DNA from: a virus
DNA: 24,680 bases
Virus record (IMG/VR): IMGVR_UViG_3300033388_002028
Span: 1 to 24,680 of that record
Strand: one strand, 5' to 3'
Below the pieces are notes generated by a model, which searched no databases, was not told the DNA's origin, and was given only the letters and a program-made list of their open reading frames with translations. Shown piece by piece: positions 8,829 through 24,598 of this stretch; position 1 is the stretch's first letter; every line of letters starts with the position of its first letter. A program made the translations under genes and the position numbers.

Positions 8829-9190
8829 AAAGGGGTTAGTTTATTGACCCTCCAAACTCCCATCAGTAGCTCATAAAGTTCAGTAAGTTTCCCCTTGAAG
8901 TACTCGAAAATATAGTCTTCATCTAGGTTTCTAGCCTGCTCATTCTCATTCCCAACATAAGAAACGCCTTTAAGCGAGCTAATTACTAAATCCATATATT
9001 CATCTTCATCAAGAGTAGAGATTGAGCGCATTATTTCAATACCCATCTCTTCATCTGTCATTTTTTTACCTGAAGCACCGAAAAACAATCCCATGACCAA
9101 TCTATCGACCATGAAGCCATTTTTTCCAGTATAAAGTACTACCTGGTATTCTTTACCAACTACGGTAACCGTTTTAAATTGTTTTTCCAT
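8744..9190 (-). CDS. Tail assembly chaperone, zero-frame product (G-like)
   Basis: A 148-aa cytoplasmic protein positioned between tail tube and tape measure, the invariable place of tail chaperones. The first 120 residues look folded (KTVTVVGKEYQVVLYTGKNG, then a mostly helical region rich in Asp, Glu, Leu and Met). The last 28 residues after TPF are low complexity (Gln, Thr, Ser, Pro), as expected when the zero-frame tail beyond a slip site is unimportant. It is not expected to be in the virion. Family assignment rests on position, size and the frameshift rather than on a strong motif. Confidence 0.72.
   Translation of the reverse strand: MEKQFKTVTVVGKEYQVVLYTGKNGFMVDRLVMGLFFGASGKKMTDEEMGIEIMRSISTLDEDEYMDLVISSLKGVSYVGNENEQARNLDEDYIFEYFKGKLTELYELLMGVWRVNKLTPFPQQDGSQTETTATSPQQPETNKSSLQG
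8828..8834 (-). promoter_or_regulatory. Probable -1 ribosomal frameshift site
   Basis: On the minus strand the zero-frame codons read ACC CCT TTT CCT. This contains the heptamer C CCT TTT, which fits the canonical X XXY YYZ pattern for simultaneous -1 slippage. It lies inside the short overlap in which the -1 frame is open, 28 codons before the zero-frame stop. It joins the two chaperone frames as in lambda G/GT. Confidence 0.7.
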
Positions 9191-9224
9191 CTTTTAATCT
9201 CCGGGGTATGGATGATTTGTTTGC

Positions 9225-9629
9225 TTATCGTCCTCTAAACTCTGACTCAACAGCCACTTTCAGAACAACATTTCTTGCAGTAGCTTCTATAGATGCATTT
9301 GGTGGATCAATGCTTTCAATAGTCGCACTACCAAATAACTTATAGTCACCACCGATGATGGCAGAAGCCCAAGGAAATGGCCCCACTGCCGCATCAAGAT
9401 CCGCTATACGCATAGCCTCAATAATACTAAGCTGAGGAGAAGTAGCCATAAAAGGAACCGTGATAGTGATTAGCATGTTTCGATTTGCTGATCTTTCCGT
9501 TTTTCCATTTTGACCTTGTTTAAAGGTAAAATCTGGACTGTCAGATTCAACAGTGATATCACCATCAAGATCTGTAATTGACAAGCCATTGATGGTGTTT
9601 TTATACTTTTTATGATCCCATGTTTTCAT
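9225..9629 (-). CDS. Tail tube protein (DUF3277-type)
   Basis: A 134-aa protein of the DUF3277 family, which builds the inner tube of the contractile tail. Seen: NGLSITDLDGDITVESDSPD near the N-terminus, then FTFKQGQNGKTERSANRNML, matching the family's G.DG...R....D. The tail reads SIDPPNASIEATARNVVLKV, like the terminal beta hairpin of tube proteins. It directly follows the sheath gene by 11 bases, the normal sheath-tube order, with a CCC/GGGG-type ribosome site before the ATG. Confidence 0.82.
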   Translation of the reverse strand: MKTWDHKKYKNTINGLSITDLDGDITVESDSPDFTFKQGQNGKTERSANRNMLITITVPFMATSPQLSIIEAMRIADLDAAVGPFPWASAIIGGDYKLFGSATIESIDPPNASIEATARNVVLKVAVESEFRGR

Positions 9630-9640
9630 TTTATGACCCC

Positions 9641-10693
9641 TTAACCAGCTACAAAGTTAATATTTAAAACTGTATGAATACTATCCATTGGCGTGTAGTT
9701 CACTTTGATGTTTGGTAGATTTCTTTTATCTACATCTGCACTCGGAATAGATGCATATTCTGGAACAACAACCGTGAATACTTCCATGATATACTGTCTA
9801 TCACTAGATTTCGCCAAGTTGAATATGCTTGTGATGGCCGCGCCAACGCTTTGAGCACCTGCATCATCATAAGTAATACCATAGCCATCATTTGCAGTGC
9901 CAAGAAGGTTAAAAACTGCTTCCATGGTTCTGAATCTAAGCCAGTCATTTTTAATTGTGGTATCAATAAAAGTAGTGTTATCACCACAAGTACCAAAAAA
10001 TGTACGCTTTGTATTTGCAATATCAGTATAGACATTCAAACCACTTGCACTAGCTGCGGCAAGTTGCGCCTTTGTTAGTGTATCGGCAGTGGTTGAATTA
10101 ACTTCTTTGTGCGCCCACATTCCACGAGCTGGATCTAATCCACATCTTCGAGTACAAATTGCAATATTCAAGAATTCATCGTCATATTCAGAATGATCGT
10201 GAGACCAAATACTAACATAAATTAGAGTATTTGCCACAAGAGCAGTCATTGCTGCATCACCAACTGTATAACTTGGTGCTTCAATATGGAACATTTTGTA
10301 GTTTGCAATTCCATATGTTTCTAAAGAAGTTGCCAAAGCTGCAATAGTTGCATCAGTAGCAGCGTCGCCAGCATACAAACAAACATGATAAAAATCAAGT
10401 CCTTCGGCGGCATCACAACCAGCCTTAACCAAAGCATCAGTCATCGCTGTAACTGGAATAATAACAATACCTTGAGGTCTTACTGTTTGGCCAAAAAAGA
10501 TAACCGCTTGAGTATATGCTTCGACTGCATTCGTATAGTCAGCCTCAACATCATCAAGGTCTACATAATACTTTGCTTCCGTAAATGCTGCATCAATTAC
10601 ACAAATAGCCATTGTATTTACAGATGTAGGTGTAGCAGAAGAACCTGCCGATGATAGCGCAATATTTACAATCACTTCCATTTTCTTATCCAT
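9641..10693 (-). CDS. Tail sheath protein (DUF3383-type)
   Basis: A 350-aa sheath protein of the DUF3383 family, the contractile outer layer of the tail. Visible features are the N-terminal VNIALSSAGSSATPTSVNTM segment, a Rossmann-like central part with FYHVCLYAGDAATDATIAAL, and a C-terminal IKVNYTPMDSIHTVLNINF. The C-terminal part would form the inter-subunit beta sheet mesh. I chose the second in-frame ATG (MDKKMEV) because AGGAGG lies 7 bases upstream of it. The ATG two codons earlier would have almost no spacing. It overlaps the neck gene region closely, as expected for coupled late genes. Confidence 0.88.
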   Translation of the reverse strand: MDKKMEVIVNIALSSAGSSATPTSVNTMAICVIDAAFTEAKYYVDLDDVEADYTNAVEAYTQAVIFFGQTVRPQGIVIIPVTAMTDALVKAGCDAAEGLDFYHVCLYAGDAATDATIAALATSLETYGIANYKMFHIEAPSYTVGDAAMTALVANTLIYVSIWSHDHSEYDDEFLNIAICTRRCGLDPARGMWAHKEVNSTTADTLTKAQLAAASASGLNVYTDIANTKRTFFGTCGDNTTFIDTTIKNDWLRFRTMEAVFNLLGTANDGYGITYDDAGAQSVGAAITSIFNLAKSSDRQYIMEVFTVVVPEYASIPSADVDKRNLPNIKVNYTPMDSIHTVLNINFVAG

Positions 10694-10695
10694 CG

Positions 10696-11229
10696 TCATT
10701 CCTCCTCGGATATAGATACACTAAATTCGTTTTCATTCAATTCGCCCGAAACTGAAATCATTCTTTCAACTGGGGGCGCCATAATATCGTTAAACATAAC
10801 ATTAAATCTCAAAGACCTCTGATTAATCCAAAAGTCTTTTTCCTGTACCGAAATATCGCTAATTGATCCGATATCCTGAACAGTAAAACCATGGTAAAAA
10901 TCATCTTCTTCTGTATAGAAATAATTATTTATGAAATCCTGAAACTCATCTTCTTGAATCAGATTTTTAAGATTTCGTAAATAATCACCTTCACCCTCTA
11001 CTTCATAAAATATAACTTCTGCAATGTGTTGTGCTATCTTTCTTTTTGTGTTTTCTTCATCATTTGCACCAGGTGACATTATTCTTCCATGCTGCTCAAC
11101 TGTGCCGGTTCCGATTGCAATGTAATTACCATCTGGGGCTGGGTCGCTAGATGGGCTCTTGATAGCTTTTAAACTACCTAAAGAATTTACCCACCCACAA
11201 AGAGAGCCTTTCAATTCATCAATTGTCAT
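10696..11229 (-). CDS. LIC_12616-type neck/tail terminator protein
   Basis: A 177-aa protein with the pattern of the LIC_12616 neck family: a short N-terminal helix, then the early strand NYIAIGTGTVEQHGR (about 35-49), a variable acidic middle, and the C-terminal FYHGFTVQDIGSISDISVQ / WINQRSLRFNVMFND. That last part matches the family's DI..I.DIS....W..RA.L.F. Such proteins cap the tail and join it to the head. It lies between the head-closure-like gene (4-base overlap) and the sheath, the standard position. Confidence 0.75.
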   Translation of the reverse strand: MTIDELKGSLCGWVNSLGSLKAIKSPSSDPAPDGNYIAIGTGTVEQHGRIMSPGANDEENTKRKIAQHIAEVIFYEVEGEGDYLRNLKNLIQEDEFQDFINNYFYTEEDDFYHGFTVQDIGSISDISVQEKDFWINQRSLRFNVMFNDIMAPPVERMISVSGELNENEFSVSISEEE

Positions 11230-11606
11230 GGGAATAATAACTCTCTAACGCCATCTGGAACCGCTTCATCTGGAACCATATTCCCTACTAGTTCATAATG
11301 AGGGATGATACCGTTTTGATATGGATTGCAATCACCTAACTGATAAATTTCTACACCAAAAGCAATATAAACACCTTCATTCCCTGCTCTAACTCTAGAA
11401 TCTAGGAATTCAGATGCAATAACTTTACACATTCCAGTCGTTCGACTACCTTGAGTATATGCTAAAACTTCTTTGGCTGTCATTGGGTGAATAGAGCCCT
11501 CCATAGTACTTAATGAAGGAGTTCCATGCACATAATCACCAGAATCATTATGACTCCCAGTGATCATTTGAACGTAATTAAAAGAAAGACCGAAAGCGGT
11601 TGCCAT
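11226..11606 (-). CDS. Probable head closure / head-tail joining protein
   Basis: A 126-aa protein in the connector cluster between DUF4054 and the LIC_12616-type protein. Its central sequence MEGSIHPMTAKEVLAYTQGSR (21 residues at about 35-55; key residues G37, S38, P41) resembles the beta-barrel joining proteins with the pattern G.V.P......L....R. The end has a HYELVGNMVPDE strand. It would close the portal channel or connect it to the tail terminator. Assigned mainly by order and the SIHP pattern. It overlaps both neighbours by 1-4 bases. Confidence 0.6.
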   Translation of the reverse strand: MATAFGLSFNYVQMITGSHNDSGDYVHGTPSLSTMEGSIHPMTAKEVLAYTQGSRTTGMCKVIASEFLDSRVRAGNEGVYIAFGVEIYQLGDCNPYQNGIIPHYELVGNMVPDEAVPDGVRELLFP

Positions 11607-11956
11607 TATACACAGCCTCCAGTTATTCCAGTCCCTTTGTAATACTGTCTCATCAGGTTTTGATATTGTTGACCAAAAGAAGTAGAGGCAAGATCACTAT
11701 CACTTGCTTTATTTGCAAATGATTGAGAAATGGAGCCTTCTTTGCGACTTGAAATCGCCCCTCCAGCTCCGCCGCCTCTCATTTCCAATGTCCCAATATG
11801 CGAGGCCATCAATGAAAGAGCAAGAGAATAAGCATCACAAAAATATGATTTTCCAACACGATAAGAAGCCATATCTAACCAGATTGGTGCTCTTGGGTTG
11901 CTTGCTAAATCAACAGGCATATAGCTTAAAGCTTTGGTTAGTTCTTCACTTGTCAT
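11606..11956 (-). CDS. DUF4054-family head-tail adaptor
   Basis: A 116-aa protein of the DUF4054 family, an adaptor that binds the portal. The family's pattern is visible: ALALMASHIGTLEM-like helix (here LALSLMASHIGTLEM), a glycine-rich turn GGGAGG, AISSRKEGSISQSF (family G.V.S...G..S.S), and LASTSFGQQYQNLMRQYYKG (family LS.T.YG..Y..L.R). It follows the major capsid region and precedes the closure protein, the normal location. The ATG overlaps nothing upstream but lies 12 bases after the previous stop. Confidence 0.82.
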   Translation of the reverse strand: MTSEELTKALSYMPVDLASNPRAPIWLDMASYRVGKSYFCDAYSLALSLMASHIGTLEMRGGGAGGAISSRKEGSISQSFANKASDSDLASTSFGQQYQNLMRQYYKGTGITGGCV

Positions 11957-20180: not shown

Positions 20181-20253
20181 CGCAATGTGGAGCAGCTGGC
20201 AGCTCGAAGGACTCATAATCCTTAGGTCATGGGTTCAAATCCCATTCTTGCTA
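20181..20253 (+). tRNA. tRNA with CAT anticodon (Met or Ile2 type)
   Basis: A cloverleaf can be drawn by hand. The D arm is GAGC-AGCTGGCA-GCTC, the anticodon arm AAGGA-CTCATAA-TCCTT (anticodon CAT at 20214-20216), the variable loop AGGTC, and the T arm ATGGG-TTCAAAT-CCCAT. The D, anticodon and T stems pair fully. The acceptor stem is imperfect: GCAA pairs with TTGC, but the outermost pair and one inner pair mismatch. The discriminator base is A and no CCA is encoded. CAT could mean elongator Met, or Ile2 if the wobble C is modified. It is the only gene-like feature opposite to the coding direction, with its own promoter and terminator. Confidence 0.8.
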
Positions 20254-22838: not shown

Positions 22839-22871
22839 TAATCTAGGTCATTAGGTCGCTAGATTTGTTTC

Positions 22872-22921
22872 GATTAACTTCTATATTTTTACTGGTTATT
22901 AGCTTTATATGTAGTTATGTG
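22872..22921 (-). repeat. Decayed attC-like site
   Basis: Directly after the 56-aa gene the minus strand reads CACATAAC (R''-like), then AGCTAATAACC (L''-like). A GTTAATC lies 49 bases on, but the L' partner is not recognisable. CACATAAC is exactly complementary to GTTATGTG, the first bases of this same cassette at 23257-23264, which argues for a former attC. Confidence 0.45.
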
Positions 22922-23092
22922 CTATTTATTTTTATTCTGACAGGCTTTGCACTTCTGCCTAGTGTAGCCAACAAGCCAGCCCATTTTTCGTAATTCCTCA
23001 CCAACTGCGTGTAGGTTTGTTTTAGTTCTTTTTACTGTATATCCACACCATGTGCAAGATACCTCAATTGTTGAATCGTGCTTTATTGCCAT
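22922..23092 (-). CDS. 56-aa zinc-ribbon-like protein
   Basis: A short ORF encoding MAIKHDSTIEVSCTWCGYTV and ending KCKACQNKNK. Two CxxC pairs (Cys 13/16 and 48/51) suggest a structural zinc site, as in small phage zinc ribbons. AGGTGG lies 6 bases before the ATG. It is the second gene of the last cassette-like unit, and its stop is next to the R''-like box. Function is unknown. DNA or protein binding is the usual role of such ribbons. Confidence 0.65.
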   Translation of the reverse strand: MAIKHDSTIEVSCTWCGYTVKRTKTNLHAVGEELRKMGWLVGYTRQKCKACQNKNK

Positions 23093-23101
23093 TTCATCCA
23101 C

Positions 23102-23200
23102 CTAGTTAAAGATTAATTCAGTAATTTTCCAAGCTCCGAAGAATAACCCAATAAAAAAGATTATTGCGATTGACTTGATTAGTGTTTGTAATTGTTCCAT
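23102..23200 (-). CDS. 32-aa membrane peptide
   Basis: A very short ORF encoding MEQLQTLIKSIAIIFFIGLF and ending ITELIFN. Almost the whole length could be one membrane helix. GGATGG lies about 12 bases upstream of the ATG, so the ribosome site is weak. It ends 9 bases before the zinc-ribbon gene, whose ribosome site overlaps its stop. Its size makes it uncertain, but it fills the cassette's 5' part. Confidence 0.45.
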   Translation of the reverse strand: MEQLQTLIKSIAIIFFIGLFFGAWKITELIFN

Positions 23201-23257
23201 GATTTTACAACCATCCTTACGCTTTACAGCGTGTAAAAATAAACAGTCCGCTTCGCC

Positions 23258-23313
23258 ACATAACCCAACCTAAAAACAATCGTACCGACTGTGTTTAGCT
23301 CTCAACGTTATAG
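23258..23313 (-). repeat. attC-like recombination site A
   Basis: A 56-bp element. On the minus strand it reads R'' CTATAAC, L'' AGCTAAACACAG, a short central loop, L' TTGTTTTTAGGTT and R' GTTATGT. R'' pairs with R', and L'' with L', with a few mismatches, as in integron attC sites of about 57-60 bp. The stop codon of the upstream gene lies within R'', a common cassette feature. Confidence 0.75.
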
Positions 23314-23550
23314 ACAATTCCTAAAATAATCAGCACCTTCTTTAAATGCTTCATCGTAAGTTTTCTTAAATCTTGAATCACTCCAATCTTGCTGTGATTC
23401 ATCACAAGCTACTTGCGCTATATGCTCTTTACTTGGCAATAAAGAATCTAATGATCCATCCAGAAAGCCCATTAGGTAGTTAATATCTTGTATATTATCT
23501 AAATTCTCATTAGCAATCAAATACGCTAAATCTTTTGAAATTTTTCTCAT
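23308..23550 (-). CDS. Cassette gene, 80-aa protein of unknown function
   Basis: An 80-aa acidic soluble protein starting MRKISKDLAYLIANENLDNI, with GGAG 6 bases before this ATG. A longer frame starts inside the preceding attC-like site and is rejected. The central LMGFLDGSLDSLLPSKEHIA and the end FKEGADYFRNCL suggest an all-helical fold. It fills cassette 23264-23579 alone. The stop TAA overlaps the R'' box of its own attC-like site. No family is recognised. Confidence 0.7.
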   Translation of the reverse strand: MRKISKDLAYLIANENLDNIQDINYLMGFLDGSLDSLLPSKEHIAQVACDESQQDWSDSRFKKTYDEAFKEGADYFRNCL

Positions 23551-23573
23551 TATTTTCTCCATCGTTAAACTGT

Positions 23574-23630
23574 CTATAACCGAACCTAAAAACAATGCTC
23601 CGCACTGTTCCTAGCTCCTTTCCGTTATGG
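23574..23630 (-). repeat. attC-like recombination site B
   Basis: A 57-bp element. The minus strand reads R'' CCATAAC, L'' AGCTAGGAACAG, loop, L' TTGTTTTTAGGTT (identical to site A) and R' GTTATAG. The outer boxes differ from those of sites A and C, while the inner L' is conserved. Confidence 0.75.
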
Positions 23631-23635
23631 TGAAT

Positions 23636-23842
23636 TTACACCTCTTCCAATAACTCATTACAATCTACACAAACATTAAACCTAATATCTTTGTGTTCTG
23701 TCGTTTCATGCTCACATTCGTTAACATCTTTCGTAGCAAATAACTTTGTAATTTCGGCACTTTTTACCGTCAAATCACATTCAGTATTGTCTACACCAGA
23801 ATTATAAACATCAAACAGTAAATCAATAATTTTTTCTTCCAT
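23636..23842 (-). CDS. Cassette gene, 68-aa zinc-ribbon-like protein
   Basis: An acidic 68-aa protein. The N-terminal half is helical (MEEKIIDLLFDVYNSG). The C-terminal part has CEHETTEHKDIRFNVCVDCN (Cys and His at about 43-45, CxxC at about 58-61), a common small zinc-ribbon form. GAGGTTG lies before the ATG. It is the only gene in cassette 23580-23878, and its stop lies 6 bases before the attC-like site. Likely a binding protein of unknown partner. Confidence 0.7.
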   Translation of the reverse strand: MEEKIIDLLFDVYNSGVDNTECDLTVKSAEITKLFATKDVNECEHETTEHKDIRFNVCVDCNELLEEV

Positions 23843-23872
23843 TTTACAACCTCTATTTTTTAAACAAACTCA

Positions 23873-23928
23873 CCATAACAAAACCTAAAAGCAATACTAC
23901 GTACTGCGTTTAGCTCCGACCGTTATGT
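23873..23928 (-). repeat. attC-like recombination site C
   Basis: A 56-bp element. The minus strand reads R'' ACATAAC, L'' AGCTAAACGCAG, a loop, L' TTGCTTTTAGGTT and R' GTTATGG. It shows one covarying difference (GC in both L boxes) compared with site A, supporting a folded structure. Confidence 0.75.
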
Positions 23929-23937
23929 GTAATACTA

Positions 23938-24084
23938 CTACATTAATTCAGCAAGCCTACATTTTGGACATTTGTTTTTTGATTTGTTATCAGGTTTGTC
24001 CCTCAATGTAGGGACAATTGTAACACATCCACAAGCGTGTTTAATATTAGTATTATACTCTTTTCTAACTTTATTTTTTAACAT
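23938..24084 (-). CDS. Cassette gene, 48-aa zinc-binding-like protein
   Basis: A short basic ORF starting MLKNKVRKEYNTNIKHACGC and ending NKCPKCRLAELM. Cys pairs CGC (18/20) and CPKC (39/42) suggest a zinc ribbon. GGAG lies 7 bases before the ATG. It is the only gene in cassette 23879-24126, and its stop is about 10 bases before attC-like site C. No function is recognised. Confidence 0.65.
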   Translation of the reverse strand: MLKNKVRKEYNTNIKHACGCVTIVPTLRDKPDNKSKNKCPKCRLAELM

Positions 24085-24120
24085 AATTTTCTCCAATTAA
24101 ATTTAAAATATCCGTACTAC

Positions 24121-24142
24121 ACGTAACAAGACCTAAGCGCAA
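24121..24142 (-). repeat. attC-like half site D
   Basis: The minus strand reads TTGCGCTTAGGTCTTGTTACGT, aligning well with the L'-R' half of site C. The R''-L'' half is not recognisable; a 30-bp repeat with an inverted core occupies that place. GTTACGTGTA matches the complement of the R'' region of the next cassette's own end (TACACATAAC) with one mismatch. Confidence 0.5.
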
Positions 24143-24172
24143 CACTCCTTACACCTGTATAGGTGGGGTTAA
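24143..24172 (-). repeat. 30-bp repeat with inverted core, copy 1
   Basis: 27 of 30 bases match copy 2 at 24569-24598. The core CACCTATACAGGTG is a near-perfect inverted repeat, followed by an AAGGAG ribosome-site-like sequence. Here it encodes the last codons (LTPPIQV, stop) of the 68-aa gene. Confidence 0.7.
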
Positions 24173-24355
24173 ATTCTTAATTCCGCACGAGGGGCAGAAC
24201 TTAAATCTTTCTACATGACCAGGATAAGGCAGAGCTTTCCTGGATGTGTTAAATTCCACTATACGATCCGAAAGATCACATAGTGCATCTAACCATTCAT
24301 CCATTGTTTTATTTACGGCTCTTATCTGGCCTACAATGTGATTACATTCACTCAC
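24149..24355 (-). CDS. 68-aa zinc-ribbon-like protein
   Basis: A 68-aa protein starting at GTG with AAAGGGG 6 bases upstream. It begins MSECNHIVGQIRAVNKTMDE. A Cys/His pair near the N-terminus (about 4 and 6) and FCPSCG near 53-58 suggest one zinc site joined by a helical hairpin. Its last seven residues are encoded by the 30-bp repeat, so the C-terminus may have been added or altered by the repeat's arrival. It lies just upstream of attC-like half site D. Confidence 0.65.
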   Translation of the reverse strand: MSECNHIVGQIRAVNKTMDEWLDALCDLSDRIVEFNTSRKALPYPGHVERFKFCPSCGIKNLTPPIQV

Positions 24356-24568: not shown

Positions 24569-24598
24569 CACTCCTTGCACCTATACAGGTGGGGTTAA
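24569..24598 (-). repeat. 30-bp repeat with inverted core, copy 2
   Basis: Core CACCTGTATAGGTG lies between the end of the partial gene at the right edge and the ribosome site of the 60-aa gene. Two of the three differences from copy 1 are at facing positions of the core. Confidence 0.7.

Follow-up and report, generated by a model that had tools for sequence, protein, structure and literature searches.

Integrons are treated as bacterial devices, and the question raised by the right end of this phage genome fragment is whether a row of small single-gene units there is an array of integron-type cassettes and, if so, to which recombination system it belongs. The window, i.e., the whole stretch of DNA analysed here, is an entire IMG/VR virus record (24,680 bases, linear). 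It is a myophage fragment whose minus strand carries the genes for the large terminase, portal, head maturation protease, major head protein, tail sheath, tape measure, and baseplate proteins, and the array lies upstream of the packaging genes and shares their direction of transcription. The terminase was 37–38% identical to terminases of Pseudoalteromonas, Idiomarinaceae, and other phages, a look-up of the portal protein found no relative, and a DNA-level search with the window or the array against phage and plasmid records returned no similar record. A tRNA-Met gene was also seen at positions 20181–20253 (plus strand), upstream of the terminase genes.

Three palindromic sites divide the small single-gene units, and their coordinates, spacing, and unit boundaries were found as a first-pass annotation of this DNA had described them. 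Read on the plus strand, attC1 (23258–23313) consists of R'' (ACATAAC), a spacer of 3, L'' (ACCTAAA...), L' (...TTTAGCT), a spacer of 6, and R' (GTTATAG); attC2 occupies 23574–23630, and attC3 (23873–23928) again has spacers of 3 and 6. Of a fourth attC, the left arm (R''-L'') is present at 24117–24150 on the plus strand, where TACACGTAACAAGACCTAAGCGCAA matches the left arms of attC1–3, and the right arm is replaced or degenerate. Cut in attC orientation (TT...G, plus strand), the units are cassette A (22915–23307, holding attC1, starting with TTATGTG and ending in CACATAAC before the attC), cassette B (23308–23624, holding attC2), cassette C (23625–23923, holding attC3), and cassette D (23924–24150, with the truncated attC and an uncertain right limit). 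The left boundary of the array (22870–22914) has its junction at G22914^TT, a spot at which an attI would be expected. Each cassette carries one minus-strand gene for a small protein: cassette A encodes a four-Cys zinc-ribbon-like protein of 59 aa (22922–23101; CxxC...CxxC; weak match to phrog_12041), cassette B a protein of 95 aa from a TTG or 84 aa from the likely ATG (23308–23595), cassette C a Cys-rich protein of 68 aa (23636–23842), and cassette D a Cys-rich protein of 52 aa from a TTG or 48 aa from an ATG (23938–24096; HxCxC...CxxC), the last three without a family. Next to the array, a 30-bp repeat was observed in two copies (24143–24172 and 24569–24598, 90% alike). The 14-bp core is CACCTGTATAGGTG in one of them and the reverse complement of this in the second, and AAGGAG follows on the minus strand; the truncated fourth attC merges into the copy at 24143–24172, as if the array had entered a gene leader.

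The annotation had taken as decisive that the end of each unit is complementary to its own start, and this was borne out. Read on the minus strand, start and end pair at 10/10 positions in cassettes B and C (GTTATGGTGA/TCACCATAAC and GTTATAGACA/TGTCTATAAC), at 9/10 in cassette D (GTTACGTGTA/TACACATAAC), and at 8/8 in cassette A (GTTATGTG/CACATAAC), so that all four units have G^TT ends and an R'' complementary to their own start over 8–10 bp. For the chance test, GTTA...TAAC pairs 180–380 bp apart were collected, and their Watson-Crick pairs were counted in the window and in order-1 shuffles of it. Three pairs with at least 8 Watson-Crick matches were found in the window, all of them inside the array, against 0.48 expected in shuffles, and two had at least 10, against 0.017 expected. 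As a positive control, successive cassettes of Vibrio and Shewanella integrons gave 8–12 bp of own-unit pairing. Because it stands above shuffles and recurs in these controls, the feature is real and typical of true cassettes; own-unit complementarity is a hallmark of bona fide cassettes and is well above chance in the window. The sites are only 66–79% alike in pairwise comparison, over a short region, as might be expected if they arose by chance similarity and local repeat duplication, but the excess of pairs with at least 10 matches argues against that origin. The pairing also bears on another possibility, in which the sites would be copies of an intergenic RNA hairpin (a terminator or a processing or regulatory element) spread among the small genes of one operon. 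The sites do lie between genes, and G-T pairs give the gene-sense strand a slightly better fold than its complement, but a hairpin selected in place would pair inside the site, and here the R boxes pair over only 5–6 bp in place and over 8–10 bp with the far end of their own unit.

We then asked whether the sites have the structure of attC. A covariance model (R1) was built here on 23 integron attC sites (class 1, Vibrio, and Shewanella); planctomycete integrons, in which the unit finder detected no arrays, were left out of the training. Folded with RNAalifold, the training sites showed the R and L boxes and extrahelical base known for attC, and the model scored 25–41 bits on held-out sites of phages TJE1 and PH101. 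In the window, its two best matches, both on the plus strand, were a full site aligned at 24121–24174 (15.7 bits, E 0.08) and attC3 (11.8 bits, E 0.77); the remaining sites had no match to this model of bacterial attC, and the sites as a set do not show the bacterial attC structure by this measure. Taken alone, the result comes close to the outcome that the first-pass annotation had itself named as counting against its reading. A second model (R2) was trained on 31 attC sites of other viral contigs, with the window sites left out and the training alignment examined for covariation. Its three highest-ranking matches in the window were attC3 (30.3 bits, E 1e-4), attC2 (24.7 bits), and attC1 (21.5 bits), all on the plus strand; the next match reached 11.7 bits, and the fourth attC had none. 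The covariance check that the annotation had proposed is thus nearly negative with the ordinary model and positive, for the three sites, with the phage-array model. That independent matches ranked 1–3 all fall in the array and on one strand further argues against chance similarity and repeat duplication, an origin that we regard as scarcely credible. The background of R2 was two matches of at least 23 bits in 832 kb of unrelated terminase-bearing phage contigs; isolated matches in terminase-bearing contigs lie at L135:130–189 (27.3 bits) and L111:10798–10846 (23.4 bits).

The two models appear to separate two kinds of site. R2 found five sites in Polaribacter phage P12002L (23–30 bits), and R1 found no site at E≤1 when phage arrays of viral contigs were scanned (132 kb). 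In the phage-integron attC class, which was defined here from viral contigs L068–L091, the right R-L spacer exceeded the left by 3 or 4 in 29 of 38 sites, against no difference in 19 of 23 canonical sites, and the three window sites have asymmetries of +3, +4, and +3, the right spacer being longer in each. By their sequence, the window sites are a class distinct from ordinary bacterial attC, with a short left and a longer right spacer, and the ordinary model is nearly negative on the window because the sites belong to this different class. Scored with R2, the window holds two or more attC and no integrase, as a phage CALIN does; scored with the canonical R1, it does not. In PH101 (H101, a Pseudoalteromonas phage), two further canonical attC were seen at L015:30919–30976 and 32308–32384 (record positions 75919–75976 and 77308–77384), which stand between and beside those at 76529–76585 and 77931–77987; all four are on the plus strand, and the local genes are on the minus strand.

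The first-pass annotation had placed the attC on the minus strand with the genes along it, and this part did not survive: with R1 and R2 alike, the attC top strand in the window is the plus strand, and since the attC reads on that strand, the minus-strand cassette genes run against it in 4/4 window cassettes. For the phage class, the assigned polarity rests on the TAACA/CGTTA asymmetry, the attI layout described below, and the weak plus-strand R1 matches, and is to that extent a reading of sequence features. In related phages, cassette genes lie on the recombinase strand, antiparallel to the attC, in 86 of 91 distinct units; antiparallel genes are common to the window, P12002L, and PH101, and are not found in TJE1, Vibrio, or Shewanella.

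Patterns taken from the window sites led to viral contigs L053/G201 and L056, which have palindromic sites and 10-bp own-unit pairing; a single-arm pattern search of viral contigs gave 10 matches, most of them by chance, with L053 and L056 being true arrays. In L056 (IMGVR_UViG_3300025870_001680, a contig of 39.7 kb), the array at 8960–11740 consists of very small cassettes, four successive units each having 10/10 own-unit pairing, and has no recombinase. In G201, a tyrosine recombinase adjoins the cassettes. A search with the G201 recombinase protein gave 26 viral loci and a second search with an alignment gave 67, and a chain of cassette units was found upstream of the recombinase gene in linked loci. 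Linkage was counted over the 45 loci that extend 600 bp or more upstream, with 600 random anchors in other phage contigs as control. A cassette unit ended 35–80 bp before the recombinase start codon in 42/45 loci (25/600 random anchors), and a chain of two or more units was present in 32/45 (1/600), where 45 is not the number of independent lineages because several loci derive from the same virus population. In held-out recombinase loci, R2 found sites that were all on the strand opposite the recombinase.

The sequence after AAC, TAYTATATGTA on the recombinase strand, is constant across the recombinase loci, and judged by its sequence and position this element acts like an attI. On the other strand, these loci show the canonical layout of recombinase, attI, and then cassettes at G^TT. 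Among named phages, the nearest relative (35%) is the integrase of Polaribacter phage Leef_1, an isolated phage; AAAGCTAACGCCCCTATATACG, upstream of this integrase start (L238:2850–2995), resembles the attI-like sequence, and an R2 scan near the integrase found no attC. Several further observations were made among the viral contigs. At L201:4293–5459 and L218:3828–5021, near the array-linked recombinase but on the other strand, there is a second, longer integrase, possibly a lysogeny integrase. Contig L002 (IMGVR_UViG_3300003154_000385) opens with a near-perfect palindromic attC-like site (positions 1–53), followed by small genes, a fragment resembling a methyltransferase, and a terminase.

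The linked recombinase has the catalytic residues of tyrosine recombinases (conserved Arg, Lys, His-x-x-Arg, His, and Tyr). Its best NCBIfam match was NF040815 (212.5 bits, cut-off 220), and the integron integrase model TIGR02249 matched with 184 bits in two pieces (cut-off 265). Simple Xer-like tyrosine recombinases (XerA/XerC/XerD; NF040815) are thus the closest named family, from which the phage gene differs in that it adjoins cassette arrays, whereas Xer enzymes resolve dimers at dif. The phage recombinases group in a single clade (support 100/98 to 100/100) that is separate from IntI, with deeper branching uncertain; when long-branch recombinases were added to the tree, the IntI rows no longer formed one group, so the tree is used here solely to show that the phage clade holds together and stands apart. 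In the alignment, the linked recombinase is without the roughly 35-residue IntI insertion. This insertion is considered essential for integron function, though it is not fully conserved in an integron-like subgroup (Smyshlyaev et al., PMC8138268), and because the phage recombinases do without it, they may act differently.

Cassette movement was seen on comparing near-identical contigs. On the recombinase (right-hand) side of a junction, L075, L076, and L077 agree across 4,392 nt (1 and 13 mismatches), and they are unrelated immediately to the left of a shared TAAC, which places the breakpoint at the TAAC/GTTA triplet. L079 and L081 have the same junction as L076, and L074 and L080 the same as L078; this recurrence in separate contigs makes assembly errors an unlikely cause. 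L078 and L079 share three cassettes (326, 306, and 334 bp) at 100% identity, arranged 3-4-5 in the former and 7-4-3 in the latter. Breakpoints at GTT in related phages, the check that the first-pass annotation had asked for, were thus found in the L075–L079 group, not in the window phage itself. Identical cassettes in another order with breaks at the same triplet speak further against duplicated RNA hairpins, which we consider a very improbable account of the sites. For the window, DNA and protein searches found no close relatives of the phage or of its cassette genes, and tblastn of the window cassette proteins against the other arrays gave no match; exchange is demonstrated for other phages and not for the window phage, because no close relative was found. 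Together with the own-unit pairing, this exchange upholds the central claim of the annotation, that integron-type cassettes with junctions at G^TT are carried by a phage.

The window itself lacks the rest of the system. A PF00589 search of the 24.7-kb record detected no tyrosine recombinase domain, in agreement with the annotation, which had seen no integrase; there is no TIGR02249 integrase gene with the insertion, as a complete integron would have, and within the fragment the array does not abut a linked recombinase. As the recombinase is absent from the fragment, we classified the window as an orphan array of the phage attC class and not as a complete integron. At the left junction of the array, the attI test gave rank 136 of 843 AAC sites, and an attI at this edge is not supported in the expected orientation. 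The best attI-like match of the window among the 843 AAC sites is AACTTCTATATTTTTAC at 22876–22892 on the plus strand, which lies 22 bp from the left end of the array in the opposite orientation.

The cassette proteins of the window are small, some of them Cys-rich, and without a family. In the related arrays, a scan of the ten largest cassette ORFs gave four DNA methyltransferases, two TET-associated glycosyltransferases, three PAPS-reductase-like proteins, and one tyrosine recombinase; a cassette-side ORF at L176:460–1440 is a tyrosine recombinase of another type.

The annotation had called cassettes in a phage unusual. The array is real, but cassette clusters (CALINs, attC without an integrase) have already been reported from the virulent phages TJE1, PH101, and P12002L (Qi et al. 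2023, PMC9892861). In that study, IntI1 recombined several phage attC sites, and the cassettes were ascribed to bacterial integrons with no phage recombinase linked to them (PMC9892861). The window resembles these CALINs in being a cassette array in a phage without intI, and it shares its attC class with P12002L; TJE1 and PH101 differ in having canonical attC. With bacterial integrons (sedentary chromosomal integrons of Vibrio, class 1) it has in common the G^TT boundaries, own-unit R''/R' complementarity, palindromic attC, and one small gene per cassette, and the related phages add a recombinase divergent from an attI-abutting array. Differences from bacterial integrons are, in the window, the asymmetric attC spacers, antiparallel genes, and a fragment without a recombinase and, in related phages, a recombinase that falls outside the IntI group and is without its insertion.

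These likenesses bear on whether the window array is a piece of a bacterial sedentary integron that was captured by a phage and moved by host IntI, for which the prophages of Vibrio anguillarum and Shewanella described by Qi et al. are the precedent. The sites share their own-unit complementarity and R boxes with bacterial attC, the two best R1 matches of the window fall in the array, and a laboratory assay (PMC9892861) showed IntI1 recombining one attC of P12002L, a phage in which R2 matches sites. However, R1 is marginal in the window and silent on the 132 kb of phage arrays, in contrast to its scores on TJE1 and PH101, the attC pattern had a single match in bacterial genome contigs, which was without attC context, and elsewhere a phage recombinase is found next to sites of this class. 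We therefore consider capture from a bacterial integron unlikely, although a good deal less so than the hairpin origin.

Overall, positions ~22914–24150 probably form an array of integron-type cassettes, four in number and with a damaged attC in the last, whose sites are of a phage attC class linked elsewhere to a Xer-like recombinase. It is similarly likely that many phages, apparently AT-rich and perhaps largely of Bacteroidota, encode their own integrons, each comprising a Xer-like recombinase that is not an IntI, an attI-like site directly before the start codon of that gene, and attC of a private class, and that the window array comes from this pool. As part of the latter reading, cassettes of the private class (DNA methyltransferases, DNA-base glycosyltransferases, PAPS-reductase-like proteins, and many unknowns) would be captured and reshuffled between phages. 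Against the first reading stand its basis in metagenomic contigs and, for the window, the truncated fourth attC and the lack of a clear attI at the left edge of the array. Mechanistically, a cassette circle would carry the attC, palindromic or folded as a single strand, and the linked recombinase, as the presumed catalyst, would join the cassette at G^TT to the attI-like site (AAC|TAYTATATGTA on the recombinase strand) just upstream of its own start codon; the same reaction would excise and reshuffle cassettes. Cassette genes point toward the recombinase and are probably expressed by way of phage transcription. An enzyme of this kind may move the window array, either from a gene in the part of the genome that the fragment lacks or in trans from a co-infecting phage or the host. 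In the literature searched (no preprints and few subscription papers), no phage-borne, non-IntI integron was described, which does not establish priority.

Some viruses thus appear to run an integron-like gene-collecting system that was thought bacterial until now, with an attC class that is largely invisible to the ordinary attC model. The proposed phage system makes it testable whether the IntI-specific insertion is truly required for cassette recombination. If the reading is true, a phage-owned recombinase and site class would be a dedicated route for collecting and shuffling accessory genes, among them, in the larger cassettes of related phages, DNA-modification genes of the type that defeats restriction, and it would account for the arrays of virulent phages without requiring that their hosts have integrons.
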